DNA from: Chaetoderma sp. LZ-2023a
Lineage: Eukaryota > Mollusca > Caudofoveata > Chaetodermatida > Chaetodermatidae
Assembly (NCBI GenBank): GCA_034401795.1
Contig: CM067360.1
Span: 118,894,279 to 118,958,278, forward strand
Length of the DNA stretch: 64,000 nt
Reading direction: 5' to 3'
Part shown: positions 2,205-63,959 of the stretch, piece after piece
Layout of the letters: every line of letters starts with the position of its first letter
How positions within the stretch are numbered: position 1 is the stretch's first letter
Notes under the pieces: generated by a model
What the model was told of the DNA's origin: nothing
The model's input: the letters and a program-made list of their open reading frames with translations, nothing else
Databases searched by the model: none
Program-made: the position numbers and the translations under genes

Positions 2205-3900
2205 TTAATAATCGTTATCTCAAGAAAGTAACTTGACTTACCGGGCGTGAATTAATTTGATAACGTATACGCAATATAGGTTTATTATATGTCTCTCAAC
2301 ACCAAATCTTAACTATCATATTGCCACATTAATGGCTCTTCGGGGATGGCATCGGGTGATATAATGTATTATCTCTGTATATTTAAGAAGGACATGCGTA
2401 ATGTGTAGAAATGGATATATATTCTGATTTTGGACTATGGCCATCAAGAGCAGTCACATGGTGTCCAAATCTGCTCCAGCTGGATATCTGGTTATTGTTA
2501 AGATTTATATTCATGACAAATAGCGTCCCATTCTTCCTGCAAATCGGCATTCACATATTGCTATGGTGACCATTGAGGCCTTAACAACGTAAGTAGAATG
2601 GATGAATCCAGGCTTACCTAGGCCACGCCCATCTCTAGCTAAGCTCCACCCACGCTGTGCCCGTGTTTGGATCGATCGAAACCTGCACTTCCTGAATCTC
2701 AATTTCCAGAAAACTATACAAGTAAGCTGTTGCATATGTTTAAATTAATCTGGGTGGGTGCTGTTTCGCCCAGTCAGTCACATTAGTTTCAGTATATTAA
2801 TATGATATACTAATTACAAAAAGTCATACAATTCACACAAATCGATGGACTATTAAGCGTTTATGACGGACTTCTTAAGACTGCATTCATGACGTGAAGG
2901 GTCATGATCTCAGCTTGTATGTGGCGTAGTTGATTATGAAGTCATATGGATGATCGATACACTGGTTTCATCCATTTAGCTGTGTGCGATGCAGCGTTAT
3001 GCAACTAATATTGCTTGTTGTTTCATGGTATAACATGTTTCGATTTCAATCAATACAGTCAATCAAATATGACCTCATTGCCTTCCAAATGTATGTATCG
3101 AATACCCAGACTACCAACTAATTATCTCTGGCTAACCGTTTCAACTGCCTCTCCATCTAACGGAGCAAACATTCCTTTGTTCGCGAGATCTTATCCTCGA
3201 TATATTCGCGTGCTGGTGGCGGAGATTTATTAGCCTGGAACAAAGTAACTCAATTATGTATGTGGTTGGCAAGCTTCTAGGCAATGTCAAGCAAGAGGTT
3301 GTACTTGTCCTACGCGTCGTGATCTTGAGTCGTAGATGTAGTTTATGTCCATTTCTAGATGGAAGGCTTACATCTCCAGATGAGGGATTAACTGACTGAC
3401 TGATGCCAGCACGACGCCATACTTTCAGTGGACAATAACTCAGGACCTTTGAATAGTTTGAGAACAATTTGGCTGCACTCCGTTAGTGGCTTATTCAAAT
3501 TGTTCTCAAAATATTCTGCATAACTAGAATAAAATGACATGAAAAAGTAGTCTGCAGAAATTCAGCAGGCAAACAGTTACGATAATGCATTTAAGAATAG
3601 ACTACCTAAGTATTCACTTCAACTCGACCGGGCACGCGATTAGAATAACAATACTACTGCATAACACATTTAAGGATAGGCTATCTAACTGGTCGCGTCA
3701 CTTAGACCAGCCACGTGATTAGAATAGCAATAACACTACATGTGTCAATAATGCCATCATATGTGTAATGCAATCGGTTCCCATCTTCTGCGAAATCTCC
3801 ACCATTTCTTCAGGGATGGGCACATTGTAGTGCGCTACTAATGCGGATTGGTCAAATCAATAGAAACGTGTACGTCATAACAATCATGTTATCACTTTTT
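2205..3900 (+). mobile_element. Composite repeat U, copy U1 (no terminal array)
   Basis: Left body 2205-2540 matches 5403-5740 and, in part, 22,970-23,110. It is followed by a hairpin/CRE MITE (2598-2975), a middle body (3000-3240) with TATGTATCGAATACCCAG and CTTATCCTCG blocks, and a second hairpin (about 3445-3515). The unit ends in sequence homologous to 7100-7420 (GGTCAAATCAATAGAAAC near 3850). Unlike U3, U4 and U6 it is not followed by a GAAT array. It also lacks the second MITE found at 6428-6840, so it serves as the empty-site reference. Confidence 0.75.
2598..2975 (+). mobile_element. Hairpin/CRE MITE, subfamily B
   Basis: Bounded by ATGGATGAATCCAG (2598-2611) and CTGGTTTCATCCAT (2962-2975), inverted repeats matching at 13 of 14 positions. 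Inside are CATCTCTAGCTAAGCTCCAC, GATCGATCG, TTTCCAGAAAACTATAC, a degraded central palindrome and a CATGACGTGAAG-type block. About 378 bp. Confidence 0.7.
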
Positions 3901-5402: not shown

Positions 5403-5742
5403 TAATCATCGTTATTTCAAGAAGGTAACTTGAACTAACAGCCGTGAATTAACTTGATACTGTTTACTCAATAACGGTTTAATATATATCTAACACAGTA
5501 TATTCTGTCAGCTTATTGCCACATTAATGGATGTTAGAGGATGTCATTGAGTGGTATACTATATTATCTTCGCATAGTTAAGAAGGACATAATATTGCAT
5601 AAATGGATAGATATTCCGATTCTGGAATATGACCATTAAGAACGGGCACATGGTGACCAGATATAGTGCAGTTGGATATGTGTTTATTGTTTAGATCTAG
5701 ATTCATGGATAATGGTAACGCTTGTTACGACGACCTCTGATA

Positions 5743-6113
5743 CATATCATCCAGTTTTACCTATGCGCCTCCAATCTCTAGCTATGCCACCGCACCCCCG
5801 CACCCCCCCCCCCCCCCCGCACCCCACCCCCCACCCACCTCCCCGAATTTGCTCGTGTTGGATTCTATCAACCCCTGAACTCAATTTCCATAAGACCATA
5901 GGCTACAGGTAACACCGTCCAGTCAGTCAACTTGGTTTTAAAACTATTCAACGCATTGTTTATTAAATAGAAATGGCATACAATTCGAATAACTCGACAC
6001 ATTGTTACGCCTTTATGGTGACCTTCATGACATGATCGGTTATGACGTCAGCCAACAGGTGGCGTAGTTACTTATGAAATCATACGGTTGATTGATACAA
6101 TGGATTCAGCCAT
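5743..6113 (+). mobile_element. Hairpin/CRE MITE, subfamily B, with poly-C insertion
   Basis: Begins with ATCCAGTTTTACCTATGC and ends with ATGGATTCAGCCAT. The CTAGCTATGCC block is followed by a ~45-bp C-rich tract (5797-5843) not present in sister copies. It keeps a GATTCTATCAACCCCTGAA-type block and a TATGACGTCAGCC site near 6040. The central palindrome is largely lost. Confidence 0.55.
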
Positions 6114-6427
6114 TTAGTCGTGTGCCATGTAGCATTATGCGACTAACATTGCCTGCTGTTTTATAGTATAACATGTTTCACATTTAATCAATACGGTCAA
6201 TCAAATATGACATTATTCCATTCAGTGTCAAATCGGAGGGTAACCTGCTTTGTGCAATCTAATAACGTCAGATTCGCTTCCCAAGTGAAATTATGAGCCG
6301 ACATTACGGTACTTACGTACTTATGCTGTTTAGCTTTGTAAATGTCCTAACTTATGTATCGAATACCTAGGCTACCAAGTAATTATCAGTGGCACACACT
6401 TTCAACAGCTTCTCCATCTAACTTAGC

Positions 6428-6840
6428 AATGGACCTTTCCATTTTAGCTATGCCCGGCCCATCTCTAGCTAAGCTCCATCCACACCTCGCTCGTGCTCTG
6501 ATTAATCGATCTCTGAACCCCCTGATTATCGATGTCAAGAAAACTATACAGGTACGCTGTTGAATAGTTTGAAACTAATTTGACTGGGTGCTGTTGTTGC
6601 CTAAGGCAGCAACAGCACTCAGTCAAATTAGTTTCAAAATATTCAACACCATGTTTCTTAAATAGCAAAGAATTACAAAGACATACAATTGATACAACGT
6701 GTCGGAGTATTTGAGATTTGGTGACCGTCTATATGGAACCCTTTGTGACGTAATGATTGTGACGTCATCGTGCATGCGCTGAGATGATTATGACGTCATA
6801 CGAGGTCAGATGATGCGTGGCTACTTTGGAAAGGTGAATT
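6428..6840 (+). mobile_element. Hairpin/CRE MITE, subfamily A, intact
   Basis: 413 bp. The left end AATGGACCTTTCCA and right end TGGAAAGGTGAATT are inverted repeats (12 of 14). The central palindrome spans about 6552-6650. Its two arms carry GAAACTAATTTGACTG and the complement around CTAAGGCAGC. TGACGTCA sites lie near 6759 and 6790. The flanks (TCCATCTAACTTAGC and ATTCCTGCG) match uninterrupted sequence at 3155-3180 (U1) and 23,880-23,905 (U7), so the insert can be delimited by comparison. Confidence 0.85.
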
Positions 6841-7486
6841 ATTCCTGCGTTTGCCAGATCTTATCCTCGGTGTATTCAGGCGTTGGTGATGGGGACTTTT
6901 TAGCATGGATATGCAAGGTTCGAAAGCAATGCCAAGCAAGAGGGTGTCGTAATCTTGGATCATAGATGTAGTTTATGTCCATCTCCAACTGGGAAATAAC
7001 TCTGGACCTGCTGCATATTCAGAGAACAATTTGACTGATATTTGTCGGTGTCTTAGCCACCAACAATTTGAAGTCAATTTGTTTTTCAAAATATGCTGCA
7101 TGTCCAGATTTAAACGACGTGAAAAATGTGGTCTGCAGAGATGATTCAGAAGGCAAACAGTTAAGATAACACATTCAAGGGATAGGCTACCTAACTTTCC
7201 GCCTCAATCAGACCAGGAATGTGGTTAGAATAGCTGCCAGATACATCAATTATGCCATCACGATGTGCACAATGCAATTGCTTACCATCATCTGCACACA
7301 TTCAAATTAATCGACATATATTACATCGATACTTGTTTGTAGCAGTTCGTTTCATTTGGGTTTGAGAATTACAGTGAGCAACCACTGATGAATGATCAAA
7401 TCATTAGAAACTTTAAATTATACCAGTGATCGAGTGAATGCATAGTTTAATGAGTGAATGCATAAATGAATGCATGCCTGACTGAC

Positions 7487-7882
7487 GGACTGAATGAATG
7501 AATGAATGAATGAATGAATGAACGAACGAATGAATGAATGACTGAATGAATGAATGAATGAATGAATTAATTAATTAATGAATGAATGAATGAATGAAAG
7601 AACGAACGAAGGAACGAATGAAAGAATGAACGGTCAGAACGAAGGAACGAACGAACGAACGAACGAATGAATGAACGAACGAACACGAGAATGAATGCGA
7701 GAACGAACGAATGAACGAATGAATGAATGAATTAATGAATGAACGAACGAATGAATGAACGAACGAACGAACGAACGAACGAACGAACGAACGAACGAAC
7801 GATCGAACGAATGAACGAACGAACGAACGAACGGCCGAACGAATGAAAGAACGAACGGATGGACGAACGACCAAACGAATGA

Positions 7883-7913
<31 letters not shown>

Positions 7914-8725
7914 CACGAACGAACGAATAGGTCGAACGAACAAACGAACGAACGAACGAACGAACGAATGAATGAAAGAATGAATGAAAGAATGAATGAA
8001 TGAATGAATGAATGAATGGACGAATGAACCCTTGAGCAAAAGAACGTACAAATGTACAAATGAACGAACGAACGAACGAACGAACTAACGAACGGACGGA
8101 CGAACGAACGAACGAACGATTGAACGAACGAACGGATGGACGAACGACCAAACGAATGAACGAACGAACGAACGAACGAACGAGCGCACGAACGAACGAA
8201 TAGGTCGAACGAACAAACGAACGAACGAACGAACGAACGAATGAATGAAAGAATGAATGAAAGAATGAATGAATGAATGAATGAATGAATGAATGGACGA
8301 ATGAACCCTTGAGCAAAAGAACGTACAAATGTACAAATGAACGAACGAACGAACGAACGAACTAACGAACGGACGGACGAACGAACGAACGATTGAACGA
8401 ACGAACGAACGAACGAACGAAGGAACGGACGAACGAATGAAAGAACGAACGGATGGACGAACGACCAAACGAATGAACGAACGAACGAACGAACGAACGA
8501 ACGAACGAACGAACGAACGCACGAACGAACGAACGAACGAATAGGTCGAACGAACACACGAACGAGCGAACGCGTGGACGAAAGGGCGAATTAATGAATG
8601 AATGAATGAACAAACGAAAGAATGCATGAATGAATGAATGAGTGAATGAATGAATGAATGAATGAATGAATGAATGAATGAATGAATGAATGAATGAATG
8701 AATGAATGAATGAATGAATGAATGA
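7487..8725. repeat. GAAT/GAAC tetranucleotide array with higher-order units
   Basis: About 1.24 kb of 4-bp units, mainly GAAT and GAAC, with rare CACG, GGAC and GGTC variants. Landmarks recur about every 275 bp: GACCAAACGAATGAACG near 7870, 8146 and 8463, AATAGGTCGAACG near 7926, 8199 and 8538, and GAGCAAAAGAACGTAC at 8034 and 8311. The array therefore contains higher-order units made by segmental copying. Long open frames of F-V-R-S or F-I-H-S repeats exist in every minus-strand frame, because a 4-bp unit gives the same 4-residue cycle in all frames. Confidence 0.95.
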
Positions 8726-10040
8726 ACATGTTTCACATTTAATCAATACGGTCAATCAAATATGACATTATTCCATTCAGTGTCAAATCGGAGGGTAACC
8801 TGCATTGTGCAATCTAATAACGTCAGACTCGCTTCCCAAGTGAAATTGTGAGCCGACATTACGGTACTTACGGTACTTATGCTGTTTAGCTTTGTAAATG
8901 TCCTAACATATGTATCGAATACCCAGGCTACCAAGTAATTATCAGTGGCACACACTTTCAACTGCTTCTCCATCTAACTTAGCAATGGACCTTTCTATTT
9001 TAGCTATGCCCGGCCCATCTCTAGCTAAGCTCCATCCACACCTCGCTCGTGCTCTGATTAATCGATCTCTGAACCCCCTGATTATCGATGTCAAGAAAAC
9101 TATACAGGTACGCTGTTGAATATTTTGAAACTAATTTGACTGGGTGCTGTTGTTGCCTAAGGCAGCAACAGCACTCAGTCAAATTAGTTTCAAAATATTC
9201 AACACCATGTTTCTTAAATAGCAAAGAATTACAAAGACATACAATTGATACAACGTGTCGGAGTATTTGAGATTTGGTGACCGTCTATATGGAACCCTTT
9301 GTGACGTAACGATTGTGACGTCATCACGCATGCGCTGAGATGATTATGACGTCATACGAGGTCAGATGATGCGTGGCTACTTTGGAAAGGTGAATTATTC
9401 CTGCGTTTGCCAGATCTTATCCTCGGTATATTCACGCGTTGGTGATGGGGACTTATTAGCATGGATATGCAAGGTTCGAAAGCAATGCCAAGCAAGAGGG
9501 TGTCGTAAACTTGGATCATAGATGTAGTTTATGTCCATCTCCAACTGGGAAATAACTCTGGACCTGCTGCATATTCAGAGAACAATTTGACTGATATTTG
9601 TCGGTGTCTTAGCCACCAACAATTTGAAGTCAATTTGTTTTTCAAAATATGCTGCATGTCCAGATTTAAACGACCTGGAAAATGTGGTCTGCAGAGATGA
9701 TTCAGAAGGCAAACAATTAAGATAACACATTCAAGGGATAGGCTACCTAACTTTCCGCCTCAATTAGACCACGAATGTGGTTAGAATAGCTGGCAGATAC
9801 ATCAATTATGCCATCACGATTTGCACAATGCAATTGCTTACCATCATCTGCACACATTCAAATTAATCGACATATATTACATCGATACTTGTTTGTAGCA
9901 GTTCGTTTCATTTGGGTTTGAGAATTACAGTGAGCAACCACTGATGAATGATCAAATCATTAGAAACTTTAAATTATACCAGTGATCGAGTGAATGCATA
10001 GTTTAATGAGTGAATGCATAAATGAATGCATGCCTGACTG
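8726..10040 (+). mobile_element. Composite repeat U, copy U4 (tandem duplicate of U3)
   Basis: Starts abruptly at ACATGTTTCACATTT directly after the preceding GAAT array. It is nearly identical to 6171-7486 with hardly any indels. It lacks the left body and subfamily B MITE of U3, so the duplicated segment was [6171 to array end]. Contains the subfamily A MITE at 8983-9396. Confidence 0.9.
8983..9396 (+). mobile_element. Hairpin/CRE MITE, subfamily A (duplicate of 6428-6840)
   Basis: Same ends, central palindrome and TGACGTCA sites as 6428-6840, offset by 2555. Copied as part of the tandem duplication, not an independent insertion. Confidence 0.85.
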
Positions 10041-11333
10041 ACGGACTGAATGAATGAATGAATGAATGAACGAACGAATGAATGAATGACTGAATGAATG
10101 AATGAATGAATGAATGAATTAATTAATGAATGAATGAATGAATGAATGAATGAATGAATGAATGAATGAATGAATGAATGAATGAATGAAAGAACGAACG
10201 AAGGAACGAATGAAAGAATGAACGGTCAGAACGAAGGAACGAACGAACGAACGAACGAACGAACGAACGAATGAACGAACGAACACGAGAATGAATGCGA
10301 GAACGAAAGAATGAACGAATGAATGAATGAATTAATGAATGAACGAACGAACGAATGAACGAACGAACGAACGAACGAACGAACGAACGAACGAACGAAC
10401 GAACGAACGAACGAACGAACGAACGAACGAACGAACGAACGAACGAACGAACGAACGAACGAACGGACGAACGAATGAAAGAACGAACGGATGGACGAAC
10501 GACCAAACGAATGAACGAACGAACGAACGAACGAACGAATAGGTCGAACGAACAAACGAACGAACGAACGAACGAATGAATGAATGAATGAATGAATGAA
10601 TGAATGAAAGAATGAATGAATGAATGAATGAATGAATGAATGAATGAATGAATGAATGAATGAATGGACGAATGAACCCTTGAGCAAAAGAACGTACAAA
10701 TGTACAAATGAACGAACGAACGAACGAACGAACGAACGAACGAACGGACGAACGAACGAACGAACGATTGAACGAACGAACGAACGAACGAACGAACGAA
10801 GGAACGGACGAACGAATGAAAGAACGAACGGATGGACGAACGACCAAACGAATGAACGAACGAACGAACGAACGAACGAACGAACGCACGAACGAACGAA
10901 CGAACGAATAGGTCGAACGAACACACGAACGAACGAGCAAATGAATGAATGGATGAATGAATGAATGAATGAATGAATGAATGAATGAATGGATGAATGA
11001 ATGCACGAATGGACGAATGAACCCTTGAGCGAAAGAACGAACAAATGTACAAATGAACTAATGTATGAACAACAGAACGAACTAATGAATGAACGAAGAT
11101 ATGGACACACGAATGACCAAAGGAACGAAGGAACGCATGACCGAACTAACAAATGAATGAGCGACCGATTGAACGAATGAACGAACGAATGAACGAACGA
11201 ACGAACGAACGAACGAACGAACGAACACACGAACGAACGAACGAACGAACGAACGAACGAACGAATTAACGAACGAACGCATGGATGAACGAGTGAATGT
11301 ATGAATGGATGAATGGATGAACGATCTTATGAG
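10041..11333. repeat. GAAT/GAAC array, second copy
   Basis: About 1.29 kb and a homologue of the array at 7487-8725. The order of variants is the same but run lengths differ: a pure GAAC run at 10,355-10,465 and long GAAT runs at 10,125-10,190 and 10,575-10,665. Landmarks GACCAAACGAATG occur near 10,500 and 10,841, and GAGCAAAAG or GAGCGAAAG at 10,682 and 11,027. Beyond 11,060 the pattern degrades. Confidence 0.95.
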
Positions 11334-11443
11334 ACGATATAAGGCGACCTTCAAACTAATATTGCTGATTATGGGGCTAGACCTTTCCAGTTGTAGGTAT
11401 GGCCGGCCCACCTCTAGCTAAGCTCCACCCATACTTCGCAATT
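11334..11443 (+). mobile_element. 5' fragment of hairpin/CRE MITE, truncated at an inversion breakpoint
   Basis: This ~108-bp piece is the close reverse complement of 15,062-15,165, sharing CTTCAAACTAATATTGCTG, GGGGCTAGACCTTTCCAG and GGCCGGCCCACCTC. It stops after CACCCATACTTCGC at 11,440, where the inverted copy U5 begins. Confidence 0.75.
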
Positions 11444-12552
11444 GCAATTGCATTGTGCAAATCGTGATGGCATAATTGATGTATCTGGCAGCTATTCTAA
11501 CCACATTCCTGGTCTAATTGAGGCGTAAAGTTAGGTAGCCTATCCCTTGAATGTGTTATCTTAACTGTTTGCCTTCTGAATCATCTCTGCAGACCACATT
11601 TTTCAGGTCGTTTAAATCTGGACATGCAGCATATTTTGAGAAACAAATTGACTTCAAATTGTTGGTGGCTAAGACACCGACAAATATCAGTCAAATTGTT
11701 CTCTGAATATGCAGCAGGTCCAGAGTTATTTCCCAGTTGGAGATGGACATAAACTACATCTATGATCCAAGTTTACGACACCCTCTTGCTTGGCAGTGCT
11801 TTCGAACCTTGCATATCCATGCTAATAAGTCCCCATCACCAACGCGTGAATATACCGAGGATAAGATCTGGCAAACGCAGGAATAATTCACCTTTCCAAA
11901 GTAGCCACGCATCATCTGGCCTCGTATGACGTCATAATCATCTCAGCGCATGCACGATGACGTCACAATCGTTACGTCACAAAGGGTTCCATATAGACGG
12001 TCACCAAATCTCAAATAATCCGACACGTTGTATCAATTGTATGTCTTTGTAATTCTTTGCTATTTAAGAAACATGGTGTTGAATATTTTGAAACTAATTT
12101 GACTGAGTGCTGTTGCTGCCTTAGGCAACAACAGCACCCAGTCAAATTAGTTTCAAAATATTCAACAGCGTACCTGTATAGTTTTCTTGACATCGATAAT
12201 CAGGGGGTTCAGAGATCGATTAATCAGAGCACGAGCGAGGTGTGGATGGAGCTTAGCTAGAGATGGGCCGGGCATAGCTAAAATGGAAAGGTCCATTGCT
12301 AAGTTAGATGGAGAAGCAGTTGAAAGTGTGTGCCACTGATAATTACTTGGTAGCCTGGGTATTCGATACATATGTTAGGACATTTACAAAGCTAAACAGC
12401 ATAAGTACCGTAAGTACCGTAATGTCGGCTCACAATTTCACTTGGGAAGCGAATCTGACGTTATTAGATTGCACAAAGCAGGTTACCCTCCGATTTGACA
12501 CTGAATGGAATAATGTCATATTTGATTGACCGTATTGATTAAATGTGAAACA
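11444..12552 (-). mobile_element. Composite repeat U, inverted copy U5
   Basis: Near-identical reverse complement of 8726-9837. The match starts at GCAATTGCATTGTGC (11,444) and runs through AAATGTGAAACATGTT (12,541-12,556). It continues into the reverse complement of the flanking array with its irregular landmarks (GAATTAATG, AACAAACGAAAGAATGC) to about 12,758. With U4 it forms a ~4.2 kb imperfect palindrome. Confidence 0.9.
11885..12297 (-). mobile_element. Hairpin/CRE MITE, subfamily A, in inverted copy
   Basis: 413 bp from AATTCACCTTTCCA to TGGAAAGGTCCATT, with the central palindrome (about 12,075-12,170) and two TGACGTCA sites (near 11,928 and 11,960). Reverse-complement partner of 8983-9396. 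Confidence 0.85.
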
Positions 12553-12830
12553 TGTTCATTCATTCATTCATTCATTCATTCATTCATTCATTCATTCATT
12601 CATTCATTCATTCATTCATTCATTCATTCATTCATTCATTCATTCATTCATTCATTCATTCATTCATTCATTCACTCATTCATTCATTCATGCATTCTTT
12701 CGTTTGTTCATTCATTCATTCATTAATTCGCCCTTTCGTCCACGCGTTCGCTCGTTCGTTCATGGGTTTCGTTCGTTCGTTCATTCATGCATTCATTTAT
12801 TCATTCATTTTTAGTCATTCATTCATGCAT
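12553..12830. repeat. ATTC tetranucleotide array
   Basis: Almost pure ATTC from 12,553 to 12,670, then degenerate with GTTC units to about 12,820. To about 12,758 it is the inverted copy of 8560-8725. Open frames of F-I-H-S repeats are artefacts of the 4-bp unit. Confidence 0.95.
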
Positions 12831-12859
12831 TCACAATTATTGATTCTCCTATTTTAATC

Positions 12860-14660: not shown

Positions 14661-14728
14661 GTCATCTGTTAGTCACGTAGTGTGGACGTATGTTCTGAAT
14701 AATATATGTTCATTAGGCGCCATGCCAA

Positions 14729-15128
14729 TAGGCCGTTCCACTGTACCCCTCTATCATATGGCGTCATAATCGACTGCGCGCCGTGTAGTATGAACTCATA
14801 CTTAATGCCGTCATGCATGCCGCAGATACGTACATGACGAACGCGTATTTGAAGACGGACTATGCGCTGTTGTACGAATTGTATGGCTATATGCTTTACA
14901 AAAATTTCCTGTTGACTATTCTGAACCTAATTTGACTGGGTCATGTCGCTGCCATAGGTAACCACATCACCCAGTCCAATTAGTTACAAACTATTCAACA
15001 ACTTACCTGTATAGCTTTCAGGAAATTGATAGTCAGCGCATTTGGGGATCGATCAGTCACAACACAGCGAAGTGTGGGTGGAGCTTAGCTAGAGGTGGGC
15101 CGGCCATACCTACAACTGGAAAGGTCTA
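14729..15128 (-). mobile_element. Hairpin/CRE MITE, subfamily A
   Basis: Plus-strand order: CATATGGCGTCATAATCGAC, GAAGACGGACTATGCGC, palindrome (14,916-15,003), TTACCTGTATAGCTTTC, GGATCGATCAGTC, GTGGGTGGAGCTTAGCTAG, and the end ACTGGAAAGGTCTAG. CRE-like sites are mutated (GGCGTCAT, ATGACGAA). Confidence 0.75.
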
Positions 15129-18892: not shown

Positions 18893-19607
18893 TCCAGTTT
18901 TAGCCATGCCCTGCTCCACCTACACTATGCCCGTGTTGAAATCGATCGATCAATCTCAGTTTCCATAAAATTATACGGGCATGATGTTGAATATGTTGGC
19001 ACTAATATGACTGCGTACTGTTGCTGTACATGTCAGCAACAGCGCTCAGTCAAATTACTTTTAACATATTAAAGATAATGAGTATTAAATAGAAAAGGCA
19101 TACACTTCGTACACCTTGCCATACTATTACGCGTCTATAATGCATTTAATTAGGCATCGTATGTATTACTTGATTATGACGTCAGCCGACATAATTATAG
19201 CGACAAATGATTGATTGATGCACTTGTATTTAGTTGTTTCAAACAAATGTATCGAATACGAGGCTACCATCCAATTCTCTCTGATTTACATTTCCAACCG
19301 CTTCTCCATCTAATGGTGCAATTATCACTTAGTTTACGAATCACGCCTTCGGTGTACAGATGTGTTGATGGCGAGGATTTATAGGCGTGAAGATAAAGGT
19401 AACGTAATTAAATACGCGTTGATAAGCTTCGCGAACAATGCTAAACAAGAAGCTGTGCTTACCCCACACGTCGTAATCGTATCAGTCAAATTGTTTTCAA
19501 AATGTTCTGCATATCCAGAGTTAAACACTCGGAAAAATGCGGTCTGCATACATTGATCAGGAAAACATTTAAGATAGCACATTCAAGGATAGGTTACCTG
19601 CCTTTTC
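18893..19607 (+). mobile_element. Composite repeat U, copy U6, with subfamily B MITE
   Basis: A subfamily B MITE occupies about 18,893-19,232: it starts ATTGGATGAATCCAG, has its palindrome at 18,983-19,070 and a TATGACGTCAGCC site near 19,185. The middle body follows (TGTATCGAATACGAGGCTAC, CTTCTCCATCTAATGG), then the remains of the second hairpin (GTCAAATTGTTTTCAAAATG). The unit runs directly into a GAAT array, as in U3 and U4. The site filled at 6428 is empty here (near 19,323). Confidence 0.7.
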
Positions 19608-20108
19608 GAATAATGAATGAATGAATGAATGAATGAATGAATGAATGAATGAATGAATGAATGAATGAATGAATGAATGAATGAATGAATGAATGAATGA
19701 ATGAATGAAGGAATGAATGAAGGAAGAAGGAAGGAAGGAACGAACGTGCGAATGAGCGACGAGTGAACGAACGATCAAACACATGAACGAACGAACGAAA
19801 GAATGAGCGAAGGAATGAACGAACGGGCGAATGCACACATGAATGAACGAATAAATGAACGGATGGACGAGTAAATTAATGACGGATGAAATGAACGAAC
19901 GAATGAATTAACACACGAATGAACGAACGAAGGAACGAACGAACGAACGAATGAAGGAATACATGAATGCATGCTCGAACTTATGAATAAATACAGTCCT
20001 TCCTTCATTCATTCATTCATTCATTCATTCATTCATTCATTCATTCATTCATTCATTCATTCATTCATTCATTCATTCATTCATTCATTCATTCATTCAT
20101 TCATTCAT
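19608..20108. repeat. Head-to-head GAAT and ATTC arrays
   Basis: GAAT units (pure at 19,612-19,710, degenerate to about 19,985) abut ATTC units (20,002-20,108) after a ~15-bp junction. The two arrays are reverse complements and could fold into a long imperfect hairpin. The array belongs to U6 on the left. On the right it leads into F3 copy 3. Confidence 0.9.
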
Positions 20109-22646: not shown

Positions 22647-22976
22647 TAACCATTCTTAATGCGTGTTATCTGTTAGTCTGCATGGAAGACTGGCAAAGAT
22701 GGCATCGACCCATCCGACTGCTTCAAATCCTACCATTTCTATATTCTTTGGATTTGAATTTTAGTTCAGCTTTAGTGAGTGGGTGATCCCTATCATACCA
22801 GTAAGAAGTGAAAAGTGTACAATGGCCACCTGACGCTTAGCAAGAATAGCAGTGCCTGATGTTATATAGAGAAGTAATGGCGTAACCATTCTTAATGCGT
22901 GTTATCTGTTAGTCTGCATGGAAGACTGGCAAAGACGGCATCAACCCATCCGACTGCTTCCAAATCCTACCATTTA
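22647..22976 (+). repeat. Pair of 93-bp direct repeats
   Basis: 22,647-22,739 and 22,883-22,976 differ by two substitutions and one inserted C. They are separated by 143 bp of unrelated sequence. Both start TAACCATTCTTAATGCG and end AAATCCTACCATTT. Confidence 0.85.
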
Positions 22977-24090
22977 AATATATATATTGTGATTCTGGAA
23001 TATGACCATCAAGGGCAGCCACATATGCTGCAGTTGGATATGTGTTTATGGTTTAGATCTACATTTATGGATAATGGTTCCGCATTCAGCTCGTGAAAAC
23101 GACCCCTGGGAAACATCCATTTGGGTGAATTTAATAAATGTGGCCTGTCGTCACATGCAAATTTCCATTCATCTATAAATATCGTGATCATTAAAGCCTT
23201 AACAATATAAGTAGCTTGGATGAATACAGTATAAGTTATTCCCAGCCCACCACTTGCTACGCTCCACCCACGCTGTACCCGTGTCGGGATCGATCGAAAC
23301 TCGCACTCCCTGAATCTCAATTTCCAGAAAACTATACAGATAAGCTGTTGGATATTTCTAAACTAATTAGGTTCAATACATTAAAATAATATAATAATTA
23401 GAAAACGCATACAATTTGTACAACATTACGGACTATTAAGCTTTGATGACGGACTTAATTACGGCATTCATGACGTAATTGGTGATGATGCCAGCCTGCA
23501 TGTGGTGTAGTTGATTATGAAGTCATTTGTTTGATCGATACACTTCATTCCTCCATTTAGCTGTGCATGATGCATCATTATACACGTAATATTGCTTGCT
23601 GTTTTATCGTATAACATGTTTCGCATTTAAGCAATACCGTCAATCAAATATGACCTCATTCCCTTCAGTGTCAACTCAGACGGCGGTCTGCTTTTGCGAT
23701 TTAATAAAGTCAGATTCGCTGTTCATGCAAAAGTGTCCGGCCCCCCAACCTCGCCCCCTCACCCACCCCCCCCCCCCACCCCATTCCTTACGCGGTTAGC
23801 CATGAGATATCCAGACATATTTATCGAATACCCAGTCTACCAACTAATTTGCTGTGCTTCACCTTTCTAACTCTTTCTCCGTCTAACGGAGCAAGTATTC
23901 CTTAGTTCGCAAGACCGTATCCTCGGTATATTCGCGAGTGGCGGTGGCGGGTCGCTATGGCATGTATATAAATGTTGGCATGGTTCGAGAGCAATGCCAA
24001 GCAAGAGGCGCGTGCTTGCCCCACATATCGTAATCTTGGGTCATAGATGTAGGTTATGTCACTTCCCAGCTGGATATCTATTGATATTCA
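22970..24090 (+). mobile_element. Composite repeat U, copy U7
   Basis: Left-body fragment (22,970-23,110), a subfamily B MITE (23,216-23,555; left end TTGGATGAATACAG, degraded palindrome, ATTCATGACGTAATTGG), then the middle body (23,590-23,960). The middle body has a C-rich tract at 23,755-23,785 and an unoccupied MITE site at about 23,895. It ends in ATCTTGGGTCATAGATGTAG and passes into F3 copy 4. Confidence 0.75.
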
Positions 24091-24099
24091 GTTATTTAA

Positions 24100-25205
24100 T
24101 TATTGATTATGCTATTTATTCGTAAGACGTTAAGGATATTCAGTCATCTATCTGTCTTGCTATCAGCATACGTTTATCTATGGATCTACCCATCTATTAA
24201 TTTGCGTTATCGATTCCTGGATTTTCCATCTATCCATATGCGTTCATTTAGTGCATTTGCCAATCGGCCAGTCGGTCTGTCCGTAGGTTACTGGATCAGT
24301 CGGTGGGTCATTCGGTATGCTGGTTGGTGGCTCAGCTGGTATGTCGTCTGGTTGGTTGGTCATTCGGATGGTCGGCCAATCGGTTGGTTAGTAAGTTGTT
24401 TGTGGGTAAGTGTGTTGGTTGGTGGATGCGTAGGTCGGTGGATGATTGGGTGGATGGGTGGTGGGTGGTTCGGCTGGTCAGTCGGTCAGATGGACGATCG
24501 GCCGGTCAATTGGTTGGTTGGCCGGTCTGTTGCCGGTTGGTCAGTATGTCGGTGTTGGGTGGGTCGGTGAGTGGTGGGTGGGCCAGTCGACTCGTCAGTC
24601 TCTCGATTCCTTGGACGGTCAGGCAGTCAGTTGTTCGAGTGTTTGGTCGATGAGCCAATCATAACGATGTCTAAACATTAGCTGTCGATCTACCTGTCAT
24701 GTGCCATTATTGCGCACTAACTTGTGCCAAACATACATAAAAAATAAAGGTCAGTCACCCACCCAGTCTAAAGCGTATCCAATTATGCAGCCGCATTCGA
24801 CACATAGACACAACAAAATCTTTTTAACATTATGGAATAATGGTGTGTTCCTGAATTCCTTATATGCCAACTATTCTGCTTAAACTGTTAATCCTTCTGT
24901 CGAGCAAACAAGCAGATGCCGTGCATTAGGCTGGATAACGCCAATACCTATCTTTGTAAAATCAGACACTGTTGCTCAGTTACTCTTTCTAAGTATATTA
25001 CGGATGTCGCGGACTCTGCACATCGTAATGGTATGATAAGATCACCAACTCATTAAAGCTCCTCTAATATTGTTCTGGAATAATCAATATGGTATCGGCA
25101 TCATTAATTATACTAAAGACACGCCACGCTCAACCATACCAGTCACATGACTTGGCGTACTGTGATCTGTCTATGCCATTTATAAAACGCATGAGATAGT
25201 AGTGT
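24100..25205 (+). repeat. Dispersed repeat F3, copy 4
   Basis: Lead GGATATTCAGTCATCTATC as in copy 1, degenerate tetranucleotide tract at 24,262-24,655, then body blocks GATGTCTAAACATTAG, TTCCTGAATTCCTTAT and CAATATGGTATCGGCATCATT. It is followed directly by a reverse MITE, as is copy 1. Confidence 0.75.
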
Positions 25206-27680: not shown

Positions 27681-28083
27681 AATTCACCTTTCCAGAGTAC
27701 CCACCCATCATATGACGTCATAATGAACTGCGTGATGTGTAGAATGACATCATAATGAATGGCGTCATGAATGACGTCGATAAGTACGTCACGAACGCAT
27801 ATTTGAAGACGGTCTATGCGTTGTTGTACAAATTGTTTGCTTTTACTATGTAAGAAATATTCTGTTTCATATTTTGAAACTAATTTGACTGGGCGCTGAT
27901 GCTGCCATATGCAGCAACAGCACCCAGTCAAATTAGTTACAAAATATTCAACAGTTTCCCTATATAGTTTTCAGGAAATTGATAGCAAGGGCATTTGGGG
28001 ATCGATCAATCCCAACACGGCGAGGTGTGGGTAGAGCTTAGCTAGTGATGGGCGGGGCATAGCTAACCATGGAAAGGCCCATT
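27681..28083 (-). mobile_element. Hairpin/CRE MITE, subfamily A, near-intact reference copy
   Basis: 403 bp. Ends AATTCACCTTTCCA and TGGAAAGGCCCATT. The distal half has TATGACGTCATAATG, GGCGTCATGAATGACGTCG and TACGTCACGAACG. The palindrome spans about 27,864-27,953. Then GGGGATCGATCAATCC, GAGCTTAGCTAG and GGCGGGGCATAGC follow. Very close to 58,603-59,005, which has the same length. Confidence 0.85.
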
Positions 28084-31271: not shown

Positions 31272-31660
31272 AATAGCCCTTTCCATATTTAGCTATGCTC
31301 CAGACATCTCTAGATAAGCTCCACCCATGCATCGCTCGTGTTGGAATCGATCTCTGAACTCACTGGCTATCAATTTCCAGAAAAATATACAGGTATGCTA
31401 TTGAATGTGTTGGAACTAATTTGACTGGCCGCTGTTGCTGCCCAGCGCTCGGTCAAATTAGTTCCAAAGTATTCAACTGCATGTTTATTAAATAGTAGAG
31501 ACATACAATTCGTACAACGTGTCGTACCATCAAGCGTTAAAGATGGGCCAAATATAACCATTATGACGTAATAAGTATGGCGTCATCAGAACACGGTGCT
31601 TAGCTGATTATGACGCCATATGGTGTCATAGGATAGATGGCTACTCTGTAAAGATGAATT
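31272..31660 (+). mobile_element. Hairpin/CRE MITE, subfamily A
   Basis: Left end AATAGCCCTTTCCA, right end TGTAAAGATGAATT. It has CATCTCTAGATAAGCTCCAC, GGAATCGATCTCTGAAC and the palindrome at 31,398-31,483. CRE-like sites are mutated (TGACGTAA, TGACGCCA). About 389 bp. Confidence 0.8.
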
Positions 31661-32575: not shown

Positions 32576-32581
32576 GACCGT

Positions 32582-32818
32582 GTTCGCACTAGATAGTTAA
32601 TCCGGCGTAACGCCTTACTTTAGTATGGGGTTACTCCGGATTGACTTTATAGCCCGAACAGGGTCGTATGTGGCTTTCGCATTAGAGGGCTAATCCTAAG
32701 TAACACCGATCGATCGCAAACGCTCGTCATAACTTGTATACGTGTGAAAGCTTGCACAAATACAACTGAAGTGTGTGATTGATTGGAGTGTATTCGGATT
32801 AGCTCTCTCAGTGTGAAC
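32582..32818. mobile_element. MITE with ~24-bp inverted ends
   Basis: GTTCGCACTAGATAGTTAAT at the left matches the reverse complement of the right end (ATTAGCTCTCTCAGTGTGAA) with one gap and few mismatches. 237 bp, no coding capacity. Related ends occur at 21,234 and 21,335 in F3 copy 3. Confidence 0.65.
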
Positions 32819-33937: not shown

Positions 33938-34779
33938 AGCAAGTTGTTGCTCTGGCAGGTTTGATTGTAATATTATTTACACGAACACGAATATCGTCCT
34001 TACCTTTGCACCTCCAAGAATAGGGACCGAGCGACGATGATGATGATATTGATGAAGAAAACGTCCAAATGGTCTATTCATCTCGGGAACTACAACTGTC
34101 GACAGAGTTACCGCCGCGTAGCTGGTAAGCGGTAATGCCGGTTCGCGGCCCTCTCATGGGAGAAGGTTAGACCTCGCTGCGTTGTATTTACGCCAGTTCT
34201 TCACGTACTTCATCTGCTAATTGCCGATTCCTGTTGCCTGGATCATTAAGAGAGATGGTCACAGCGGGACCTAAGATGCAAAAATACAGAAATAACATTA
34301 GAAAGCGAGATTTATATGCATTGACCATTTATCGCCTTTCGACTGCGCTGTACTATTTGGATAAGAGAAATATTAAGTGCTCGTGGGTGCGTGCTGTGTG
34401 CGGTTGTGCGTACGTTCGTGCGCATGTGCATGCGCACGTCTGTGCGGGAGCCAAACGGGTGGGCAGTTGGAGGGATTGGCGTGCGGGTGGGCGGGAATTT
34501 GTTCCTATTGTCATCTCGATATCATTGTCCATTTAAATACATTTCCGAGTGCATATATATGTGTGTGGCCCACAAATGATGGTTTCCCTCACAATGCAGA
34601 TGAACAAATAGAAGTGTCTTGAGTGTACGAAAACCGCTCATGAATTGTCCATTATACTACTCATATAGGCTAATGCGTATAGAGAAGCTAAAGACGCAAA
34701 ATGCCTAATTTGTGTCTCGAAGTTTCAAAGTTATTTGGTGACAAAATTTGTTTTCTGCAAATTGTAAGCCCAGAATAGA

Positions 34780-35169
34780 CATTTCAAATGTATCCAACCA
34801 TCATATTGACGTCATAATCAACTACCTCACGTGTATGATGACGCCATAATTACGACGCCGGGAATGACTCGAAATAGTCCGTTTTTAGCACTTAATATGC
34901 CGACACGTTGTACGAATTGTAAGTCTTTACCATTCAATTAACATTCTGTTGAGTATTTTGAAACGAATTTGACTGGACGCTGTTGCTGCCATAGGCAGCA
35001 ACAGCGCCCAGTCAAATTAGTTTCAAAATATTTAACAACGTAGCCTGTATAGTTTTCTGGAAATTGATACTTGGCGAGTTGAGGGATCGAGGGATCCGAA
35101 CACGAGCTAGTTGCGGATGGGGCTTAGCCAGCAATGGGTAGGCCATAACTAAAACTGGACAGATCCATT
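34780..35169 (-). mobile_element. Hairpin/CRE MITE, subfamily A
   Basis: TATTGACGTCATAATCAAC, palindrome about 34,946-35,037 with near-perfect arms, TGTATAGTTTTCTGGAAATT, GATCGAGGGATCC, GGCTTAGCCAGCAATGGG, end ACTGGACAGATCCATT. Confidence 0.8.
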
Positions 35170-58602: not shown

Positions 58603-59005
58603 AATTCAACTTTCCAAAGTAGCCACCCATCATATGACGTCATAATGAACTGTGTGCTGTGTACAATGACATCATAATGAATGACGTCATGAATGACGTC
58701 GATAAGTACGTCACGAACGCATATTTTAGGACGGTCTATACATTGTTGTACACATTATTTGCTTGTACTACTTACTTAATATTATGTTAAATATTTTGAA
58801 ACTAATTTGACTGTGCGCTGTTGCTGCCATAGGCAGCAACAGCGCCTAGTCAAATTAGTTACAACCTACTCAACAGCTTTCCTGTATAGTTTTCAGAAAA
58901 TTGATAGCTAGGGCATTTGGAGATCGATCAATCCCAACACGGCGAGGTGTGGGTGGAGCTTATCTAGTGATGGGCGGGGCATAGCTAAACATTGAAAGGT
59001 CCATT
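58603..59005 (-). mobile_element. Hairpin/CRE MITE, subfamily A, near-intact
   Basis: 403 bp, closely matching 27,681-28,083 throughout. Ends AATTCAACTTTCCA and TTGAAAGGTCCATT. TATGACGTCATAATG near 58,633, AATGACGTCATGAATGACGT near 58,680, palindrome about 58,792-58,876. Confidence 0.85.
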
Positions 59006-60945: not shown

Positions 60946-62064
60946 ATATATACTGAACCAAAACAGTTTAGCAACACTGAGAATATTACTGTATACATGT
61001 TATTTAACAAAAACAATAAATTGATTCAAATATATTATTTAATTGATAGGCCATTTTCCAATTTGAACAACAGTCTTTTGTTACTGTAATGCTAGCATCG
61101 CGCCTTTAACACTGCATCATTCAACGGAAGGGTCCAATTTAAATAATGACACTGAGCTGTCAATACCTGTTGTGACCTCCGCGCGCATTAACCACCGCCG
61201 TGCATCGCTTTTTCATGCTTCGAATTAAGCACCTGATGTCACGAGGAGGAATCGCATCCCATTTCTGGAGCAGCTTCCAGCTCCCGCACGTTGTGAAGAT
61301 GGGGATGGTTATCACGCACCATACGGCCAAGAATGTCCCACACGTGTTCGATAGGAGACAGGTCCGGTGATCGCTCTGGCCAGTCCAACACCGGAACGTT
61401 GTTAGCCTCAGGAAATCACTGGTGACCCTAGCTGAATGAGGACGGGCGTTGTCTTGCTGGAACATAAAGTCTGCACGATGCTGCATAAAAGGGATGACAA
61501 CAGGGGCGACAACTTCCGCAGTGTAACGTCGAGCCGTTAAATTTCCGCGAATCACAATAAGATCTGTGTTGCCATTTTCATGGAGTCCAGCCCACACCAT
61601 GACACGGCCGCCACCGAATCCGTCGTGCTGAATGATGTTGGCTGCATCATACCGTTCTCCTAGACGTCGCCAAACTCGTTGCCTACCATCCGCCACATTC
61701 ACACCAAAACCTCGACTGAAGAAAACATGGCTCCATTGTTGAGCACGCCATCGCTGATGAGTTCTTGCCCATGCAAACCGATTCTCGATGTGACGCTCTG
61801 TTAACGTTCGTTATCTGCTTTTGCAATATGGTGAATTTTTGCCTTCGCTACCCGCCAATGTGGGCCAGTGCGTGAAAAAATGCATTTTCACATGCAGTAA
61901 GCGTGCGGCCGGGAAATGCAAGAAATGATTTACATTTCTTCATGATCAGAGATACATTACATTGACGAAACATGCCTGCACAATTGGTTATAAATGGACG
62001 CATAGTTTTAATTCAACAAACCAAACTTCACTGTTGCTAAACATTTTTGGCTCAGTATATGTAT
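60946..62064 (-). mobile_element. Decayed Tc1-like transposon with ~36-bp inverted ends
   Basis: 60,946-60,980 (ATATACTGAACCAAAACAG then TTTAGCAACACTGA) is the imperfect reverse complement of 62,028-62,064 (TCACTGTTGCTAAACATTTT then CTCAGTATATG). They flank the transposase remnant on both sides at distances expected for a deleted Tc1 element, about 1.1 kb in all. Confidence 0.6.
61160..61960 (-). pseudogene. Tc1-family (DD34E) transposase remnant
   Basis: The minus-strand open part 61,702-61,160 encodes the C-terminal half of a Tc1/IS630-type transposase, which cuts and pastes its own element in the nucleus. Visible are the GGGRVMVWAG block, FQQDNARPHSAR with the second catalytic Asp (codon 61,453-61,451), and the final MKKRCTAVVNARGGHNRY. 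Upstream, to about 61,850, the same strand reads RHIENRFAWARTHQRW and QQWSHVFFSRG. The usual SDESRF motif with the first Asp is destroyed by a small deletion. A one-base frameshift near 61,405 and a compensating indel near 61,270 interrupt the stretch with SPDLSPIEHVWD, which holds the Glu (61,347-61,349). The spacing between Asp and Glu is 34 residues once frames are followed. Clearly inactive; the N-terminal DNA-binding region is not recognisable. Confidence 0.88.
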
Positions 62065-62560: not shown

Positions 62561-62934
62561 ATTCTTCAAGACCATGCGAGAGGCTGGCCTAGTCCGACAT
62601 GGCTATGGCAGTGTCAATACATATACACCTGTGCAACAGTTAAGCACCAGCAAAAACAATAGAACGTAGAAACATGATGGTACAACTAGGCTGCCATACT
62701 TTTTGTCCCCGCGTTAGCTGACATAATTCCAAGTACGAAATGCACATGCATGCATGACTTCACGCCGCTTGATGTCCGTGCGTGGCGGGAAACAGCACAC
62801 GTGTTCAGTTATGTAAAAGTCCAGTTTGAGGTGTAGAACATTACATACAGATTTAGGCGACAAGATTAGGAATTTTGTGTTCATGACCGTGGTTTATTTG
62901 TACAGAGAGAATTAGCTCTTGATTGTGAACCGCT

Positions 62935-63959
62935 ATGGCAAGACGAAGGTTAAGTGATCGTGTGAAATGGCAAATCATAGGCATGCATACCACTGGTATG
63001 TCATGCAGAGAGATTGGCAGACAGCTGAACATTAACCATACTGTAATCAGTCGTTTGATTGCAAAACATGGGCAAACTAACGAGGTGAAGGACAGGCCTA
63101 GATCTGGAAGACTGAAGAAGACTACTGCCCGTGATGATCGAGCCCTAGTACGCCTTGTTAGTAGTCTCCATTCACCAACAGCAGAGTGCTCAGCCAGCAA
63201 TGGGAAACGCGCAATAGAGTGTCAATGTCTACCGTCAAAAGGAGATTGTATGCTGCTGGCATGAAAGCTAGGAGACCTGTCAGACGTCCTCTCCTCACTG
63301 CACACCACAAAGAGGAGCGTCTGAGGTGGTGCAACGAAAGAAGACACTGGAACATGAGATCCTGGAGACGGGTACACTGGTCCGATGAAAGTCGGTTCCT
63401 GCTTCATGCCACAGATGGTCGAACTCGTGTATGGAGGTCCAGACGCACGGCGTACGACCAACATAACATCATGGAAGAAGTTCCATTTGGTGGAGGTTCC
63501 GTTATGATATGGGGGTGCATCTCATTTGATTGTAAGCTGGATCTGTTGACTGTACCTGGAACACTAAATGGACAAAGATATCAAGATTCCATACTGGATA
63601 GAGTTGTCGTCCCTCATTTTGTAAATCATGCACCTGGAACCCACCCTATATTCATGGATGACAACGCCCGACCACATCGTGCTAGAGCTGTGCATGAATA
63701 CCTCCGCCAGAATGCCATCGAAACCCTACCATGGCCAGCAAGGAGCCCTGACATGAACCCTATTGAGCCTATCTGGGACATTCTGGGAAACATGGTGAGA
63801 AGGAGGGATCCTCCTGTGCAGAACCTACAGGAATTAACAGACGCACTCCATCTTGAATGGCAACGAATACCACAATGGCGTATCAGTCGGTTGGTGACCA
63901 GCATGAGACGTCGTGTCCAGGCCGTCATCCAGGCACAAGGTGGATATACCCGGCATTAA
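62935..63959 (+). pseudogene. Tc1-like (DD34E) transposase with a single frameshift
   Basis: A nearly complete Tc1-family transposase in two overlapping frames. 62,935 to about 63,185 encodes the N-terminal part: a helix-turn-helix region (residues about 1-50, MSCREIGRQLNINHTVISRL) and an RPRSGR linker. From about 63,186 the next frame continues with QQWETRN, then the catalytic domain: HWSDESRF (first Asp at 63,384-63,386), FGGGSVMIWG, FMDDNARPH (second Asp at 63,660-63,662) and SPDMNPIEPIWD (Glu at 63,765-63,767). 34 residues separate the second Asp and the Glu. It ends GGYTRH then TAA. The combined length of about 340 residues is normal for the family. The frame change fits a one-base loss near 63,185. 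A sequencing error there would make the gene intact. The ATG at 62,935 opens the conserved N-terminus directly. The right end of the element lies outside the window, and its left end was not identified. Confidence 0.92.

Follow-up and report, generated by a model that had tools for sequence, protein, structure and literature searches.

ISL2EU is the group of PHIS (Harbinger-like) DNA transposons that most resembles the family described here. As set out in the sections of the published survey that we draw on (PMC4482050), ISL2EU elements occur only in animals and are flanked by an AT target site duplication (TSD) with a conserved A before it and T after it, empty sites confirming the target A|AT|T; their terminal inverted repeats (TIRs) measure 6–259 bp and usually start with GG. 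The survey was transposase-based and, by its own statement in those sections, might have missed miniature elements (MITEs). Small elements mobilized in trans by an autonomous group are a feature of PIF/Harbinger and Tourist-type MITEs such as mPing (PMC2836001, in the portion used here), a pattern that our family probably shares. For fish genomes, the available portion of a further study gives Harbinger-like sequences as 0.002–0.14% where they are present (PMC9179366).

The family has in common with ISL2EU an AT duplication, an A|AT|T target and TIRs that mostly begin with GG, and elements encoding YqaJ and HTH/DDE proteins (with THAP in two) are present in the same genome. In contrast to known ISL2EU elements, it is short (0.4 kb) and non-coding and has a central palindrome; unlike the Harbinger-like sequences of fish, as far as that portion describes them (PMC9179366), this one family makes up 7.65% of a 200-kb sample of its genome. 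Its mechanism would be the ordinary one of an ISL2EU-type MITE, its copy number is extraordinary and its copies share a palindrome.

The reference copy lies in the window, by which we mean the whole 64,000-base stretch of DNA analyzed, as a 403-bp unit at 27681–28083 whose limits, taken from a preliminary description, proved exact. Read on its own strand, this unit extends from AAT-GGGCCTTTCCATGG... to ...GGAAAGGTGA-ATT. The transposon proper is shorter than that description had it, as the three outer bases at each end belong to the target: the element occupies 397 bp of the minus strand (27684–28080), with its 5′ end GGGCCTTTCCATGG at 28080, where it begins with GG, and its 3′ end ...GGAAAGGTGA at 27684. 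AT is present on both flanks, preceded on the left by the target A (27681–27683) and followed on the right by the target T (28081–28083), an assignment based on the junctions and, for the left side, also on empty sites of other copies. Two adjoining 21-bp direct repeats, TAGCTATGCCCCGCCCATCAC and TAGCTAAGCTCTACCCACACC, are subterminal at the 5′ end (28024–28065, minus strand), and a related, shorter CCACCCATCA stretch is found at the 3′ end on the opposite strand; these repeats are candidate transposase-binding sites. The central palindrome described earlier as ~90 bp with ~45-nt arms was found at 27862–27954, with two 44-nt arms that are 89% complementary and 5 nt between them. The copy folds at −147.8 kcal/mol (z = −9.66 against 100 shuffles). 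Palindromic TGACGTCA-like sites are clustered at 27713–27790 (minus strand), in the 3′ third of the element. At the level of sequence, the preliminary description was accurate overall; its regulatory and small-RNA reading is a hypothesis.

A profile built from six full copies, with window matches taken at E up to 0.01 and grouped into intervals by hand, identified 27 element-scale and 12 hairpin-scale intervals that together cover 9,902 of the 64,000 bases, in agreement with an earlier count of about 28 copies or fragments; the reversed window, used as a control, gave no profile match below E = 2. The core 17-mer CTAGCTAAGCTCCACCC has 15 window matches at ≤3 mismatches, where 0.05 are expected. 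The closest sister of the reference copy, 90% identical, is at 58603–59005 (minus strand). Other full copies are at 6428–6840 (plus strand), 31272–31660 (plus strand, from profile and junctions), 34775–35169 (minus strand) and 14728–15128 (minus strand). A subfamily B copy at 2597–2976 (plus strand), with the 5′ end GGATGAATCCAG and a related 3′ end, is nested in a larger repeat. This larger dispersed repeat is found at 2300–3800, 5500–6427 plus 6841–7281, 19230–19610 and 22900–24100 and hosts the nested subfamily B copies. The copies at 8984–9396 and 11885–12297 are duplicates of 6428–6840 within a segmental duplication and not separate insertions. The duplication itself has three copies that are 88–98% identical (6170–8617, 8725–11324 and 11444–12832), the third inverted. 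Its 119-base junction at 11325–11443, 96 bases of which match 15162–15067 at 99%, has the look of templated insertion at the breakpoint of a rearrangement, or else is an assembly artefact.

How abundant is the family in the genome as a whole? The exact 17-mer occurs 46,652 times (23,491 + 23,161) in the 2,438,752,110-base assembly, and the same 17-mer reversed but uncomplemented occurs 0 times. We also sampled 20 stretches of 10 kb on 11 contigs, at round coordinates picked by hand, and searched them at E up to 0.001. The family accounts for 15,308 of these 200,000 bases, with 31 hits that span at least 200 profile columns; five of the 20 stretches have none, and the reversed sample gave no profile match at all. 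The window is about twice as family-rich as the sample, at a slightly looser threshold. Very roughly, as the basis is 20 stretches, the sample scales to ~380,000 copies and ~190 Mb. On this estimate, a genome of 2.4 Gb would owe several per cent of its length to one short ISL2EU-type MITE family, an abundance that is unusual for a group described as scarcer in fish in the portion of PMC9179366 used here. The junctions considered below, the 17-mer counts and the 200-kb sample support the earlier proposal of a MITE with defined ends and high copy number throughout the genome.

Placement of the family depends on its junctions, where the 5′ pattern is A|AT|GGACCTTTCC.... Window junctions were placed by eye, with that at 2970 shifted by a few bases and the 3′ end of 41359 left unplaced. 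In the window, 12 of 16 5′ ends have AAT immediately before the element and 10 of 11 3′ ends have ATT immediately after it. Among A-type ends, 10 of 11 conform to the 5′ rule, as do two of five B-type ends (GGATGAATCC...), the exceptions being 14733, 18299, 18884 and 23218; the full copy at 14728–15128 has GCT instead of AAT at its 5′ junction. All three B-type 3′ ends read CCATT, but they belong to paralogous copies of a single larger repeat. In the sample, AAT is present at 17 of 19 5′ ends, a proportion biased upward since these ends were included only where the match extended to the first columns of the profile, and ATT at 12 of 16 3′ ends, two of which are the common junction of one tail-to-tail pair; flanks further out are near random. 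AT is found at both junctions in nine of the 10 both-ended sample copies, four of which have one junction base that departs from A|AT..AT|T, and in six of eight such window copies (all but 14733 and 23218). A GG start is seen at 11 of 16 window 5′ ends and at all 19 of the selected sample 5′ ends, and the 3′ end of the element is a weaker TIR match (CC, GA, TC or CT). Further end variants with AAT are present in L001–L008. In sampled locus L016, two copies (6526–6940 and 7328–6937) lie tail to tail with one GAATTC junction in common, an arrangement that would result if one copy had inserted precisely at the terminus of its partner.

The target A|AT|T is consistent with two insertions for which paralogous empty sites are available. 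A scan of 21 window loci yielded one clean case, the copy at 6428–6840, which splits one member of a repeat; the other three members in the window (3084–3239, 19247–19450 and 23810–23950) are uninterrupted and equal in length at the junction once one AT is removed. The filled site reads GCAAT[element]GAATTATTCC and the empty paralogs read ...GCAA[AC, GT or TT]AT..., with AATT in only one of the three. A second window candidate, 54960, was rejected, as its junctions fail to align. The other insertion, at L030:3981, has landed within a single unit of a tandem array with a 31-nt period: the filled unit is GTCACA-AT-[GGACAC...TTCATGA]-AT-TGAGCAAATT, and the neighboring unit, GTCACAATTGAGCAAATT, is the exact empty site.

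That ISL2EU elements duplicate AT was the lead for placing the family. Both the AT duplication and the A|AT|T target were derived from the junctions ahead of any comparison with the survey (PMC4482050). Since the AT duplication, the A|AT|T context and the GG start are published hallmarks of ISL2EU in the sections of that survey used here (PMC4482050), we assign the family, with a probability of roughly 0.84, to the ISL2EU group as a non-autonomous (MITE) family. No description of this MITE family was found in the literature searched; the whole window contained 0 Rfam families at gathering scores, and two core patterns had 0 exact matches in viral_contigs.

If the family is of ISL2EU type, which elements supply its transposase? 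The same genome has 67 YqaJ matches and at least 150 DDE_Tnp_4 matches (150 of 2,519 candidates scored); YqaJ also matched E. coli and B. subtilis among 14 controls, and DDE_Tnp_4 matched Bacteroides ihuae among its controls. Thirteen of the 67 YqaJ places were read whole or in part, five as two-ORF stretches (L029, L030, L039, L040 and L041, representing three distinct families) and eight as a 3.2-kb upstream piece (L031–L038). A YqaJ ORF is near an ORF with DDE_Tnp_4 and HTH_Tnp_4 in L029, L030, L039 and L041; THAP scores above its cut-off in L039 and just below it in L029 (23.4 versus 23.9 bits). L039 and L040 have ~4.8 kb in common at 97.8%. The five two-ORF stretches look like autonomous ISL2EU elements, and long open frames are present in some of them. 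An autonomous element with the TIRs of the MITE family was not found at these 13 places: L029 appears to have AGACTCCTCT-type ends and L039 and L040 appear to have ACAC.CGT-type ends, both different from those of the MITE, and the L030 and L041 stretches stop short of their ends. The MITE beside YqaJ in L030 and L041 was considered as an end of the autonomous element and rejected, as it is nested in the 31-nt tandem array within a longer shared repeat. Within the window, Pfam searches of 10 of the 229 ORFs revealed no ISL2EU gene.

Since none of the YqaJ places read had the family's ends as its own, we infer, rather than observe, mobilization in trans. The THAP/HTH/DDE_Tnp_4 transposase of an autonomous ISL2EU element located at another genomic site would bind the MITE ends; its probable contacts are the TAGC..CCCATC subterminal repeats, with the ATGACGTCAT cluster as a further possibility. 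The transposase would then excise the MITE and insert it at A|AT|T, with duplication of AT.

Among the internal parts of the element, the palindrome has diverged least, with a mean divergence of 0.150 versus 0.184–0.296 elsewhere in the window copies and 0.107 versus 0.148–0.223 in the sample; only the terminal 11 columns are less diverged (0.086, six copies). In the closest pair, 27681 and 58603, the hairpin has not changed more slowly than the rest (0.118 versus 0.092). We read the low overall divergence as possible constraint between source elements, a reading for which this one close pair is the basis. Evidence that pairing is kept within copies is weak and mixed. The sample fits independent decay, with 793 pairs observed versus 790.0 expected of 997 and three co-changed pairs versus 4.3; the 18 window copies are somewhat above expectation, with 525 pairs versus 492.5 of 677, eight co-changed pairs versus 4.2 (Poisson 0.066) and a covariation of 0.124 versus 0.103 in shuffles (6/500). 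Maintenance of the hairpin copy by copy, through selection or correction, is unsupported. The palindrome center is a deletion hot spot: deletions of at least eight columns span it in nine of 20 window cases, against a random mean of 1.1 (maximum 6 in 10,000), and in five of 20 sample cases, against a mean of 1.03 (maximum 6). Most likely, the palindrome belongs to the source elements, and copies that have landed would mostly decay and tend to lose the center by deletion. The hairpin thus seems to be mainly a property of sources and a liability afterward. Because copies of many ages carry the same palindrome, the instability of palindromes can be measured with this family. A further 90-bp palindrome at 32576–32665 (45-nt arms, 78%) has no match to the MITE family.

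Is the hairpin a part of this MITE alone? Hairpins separated from the remaining element sequence were counted at 40 loci in 309 kb; the 200-kb sample accounts for 25 of these and also has 33 element loci. One possibility, which we consider a minority reading, is that the hairpin constitutes a palindromic repeat in its own right, acquired by the MITE and by other elements and spreading alone or as a cassette. Consistent with this idea, two adjacent pairs differ between settings: the MITE mostly has G-C followed by T-G, T-A or C-G, and most stand-alone hairpins have A-T at both positions. Pair covariation across 28 MITE and stand-alone hairpins is 0.187 versus 0.137 and exceeds all 500 shuffles, but this measure, driven in part by those two adjacent pairs, counts inherited changes repeatedly, and ancestry-resistant measures reach only 29/500 and 11/500. 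A TTAACCCTTT-type end (≤1 mismatch) lies within 150 nt of seven of the 40 hairpin-only loci, compared with 5.4% of 2,000 random places; the other 33 loci lack one within that distance. Neither sharp outer ends nor duplications were seen at the stand-alone hairpins, and the hairpin-only loci may represent what is left of old MITEs, because the least diverged internal part is also the most detectable. The motif TTAACCCTTT/AAAGGGTTAA occurs 32 times in the 309 kb, as in L012, L016, L020 and L021, versus once in the reversed control; we take it to mark a MITE family that probably inserts at TTAA.

A broader version of this idea, to which we give distinctly less credence, is that a ~140-bp palindromic module is portable among transposons with different ends, with pairing kept from source to source and the center deleted in dead copies, and that it helps elements to multiply. 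As part of the same joint and rather improbable reading, the sharers of the module would be the ISL2EU-type MITE, the TTAACCCTTT-ended elements and the autonomous ISL2EU elements. In L030, L039, L040 and L041, hairpin-like modules are indeed found in the interval between the YqaJ ORF and the transposase ORF, which are convergent, and L029 has a MITE fragment there instead of a bare hairpin. This position, and with it the link to ISL2EU genes, is only suggestive. Near ISL2EU genes there is no clear excess of hairpin-only loci, with seven in 45.4 kb (L029–L038) versus 25 in 200 kb.

Rewiring of transcription by the distribution of CREB/ATF sites, as the main effect of the element, is improbable. 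The preliminary description had proposed that the family spreads CRE-like sites, and the enrichment it implied is present: 18 of the 20 TGACGTCA octamers in the window (1.29 expected) and 25 of the 54 in the 200-kb sample, of which the family forms 7.65%, are within the family. The number per copy is more variable than the 2–5 TGACGT sites proposed, ranging from 0 to 6 TGACGT/ACGTCA in 20 copies, several of them truncated and counted over profile columns only. Regulatory use is unproven because the CRE octamers are not clearly better conserved than neighboring octamers: their percentiles within their own half of the element are 0.52, 0.84 and 0.93 for the window copies and 0.42, 0.67 and 0.89 for the sample copies. 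Exact retention is 3/18 and 3/17 for the first two sites and 3/4 gap-free copies for the third. Conservation is highest for the octamer closest to the end, a pattern that would fit a role in transposition at least as well as binding of a host factor, and a palindromic cluster beside a terminal repeat would be equally expected of transposase-binding sites. The cAMP-response-like sites and the hairpin both appear to belong to the transposon itself and are not proven switches, and for the sites a regulatory role is a testable but so far unsupported hypothesis. For the hairpin, the use as a small-RNA precursor or editing substrate that the preliminary description also proposed is likewise unproven.

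With regard to the ISL2EU assignment itself, the nearest competitor is Pangu, another PHIS group, whose 3-bp ANT duplications would here be AAT. Pangu TIRs usually start with AG or GG and the ANT target is AT-rich, according to the sections of the survey used here (PMC4482050), and the duplications at 6428 and L030:3981 can be read as AAT, which is the most that these two insertions allow. Several copies nevertheless combine a 5′ AAT with a 3′ TAT or CAT (2597, sampled loci L021 and L012, and 34775, where AAT is paired with TATT), and in copies whose 3′ flank is TATT or CATT only AT is common to both sides, so that a Pangu ANT suits the AAT copies but not these; the conserved T after the duplication is also an ISL2EU feature in those sections (PMC4482050). 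We therefore consider a Pangu origin improbable. PIF/Harbinger, for which the same sections give a TWA duplication (PMC4482050) in place of the AT-type duplication at our junctions and empty sites, and Spy, which likewise has a palindromic AT-rich target but inserts at AAATTT without duplication, where our copies have a variable base outside AAT/ATT and empty sites that fit a duplication, were both rejected.

Besides the ISL2EU-type MITEs, the window contains other repeats and transposon genes. Long degenerate GAAC/AATG tandem arrays of 4–8 bp, with long repetitive open frames, extend over 7449–8727 and 10005–11321, and the bin 8001–12000 has an AT skew of 0.308. Two of the 10 ORFs tested had Pfam matches, a Tc1-type transposase and a neighboring DNA-binding part. 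The Tc1/mariner-type transposase ORF is at 62929–63956 (plus strand), with matches to HTH_Tnp_Tc3_2 and DDE_3 over 63165–63956; for the neighboring DNA-binding ORF, the best match, HTH_SB, is below its cut-off, and PAX is just above its own. A further ORF at 61163–61810 (minus strand), without a Pfam match, appears Tc1/mariner-like by eye.
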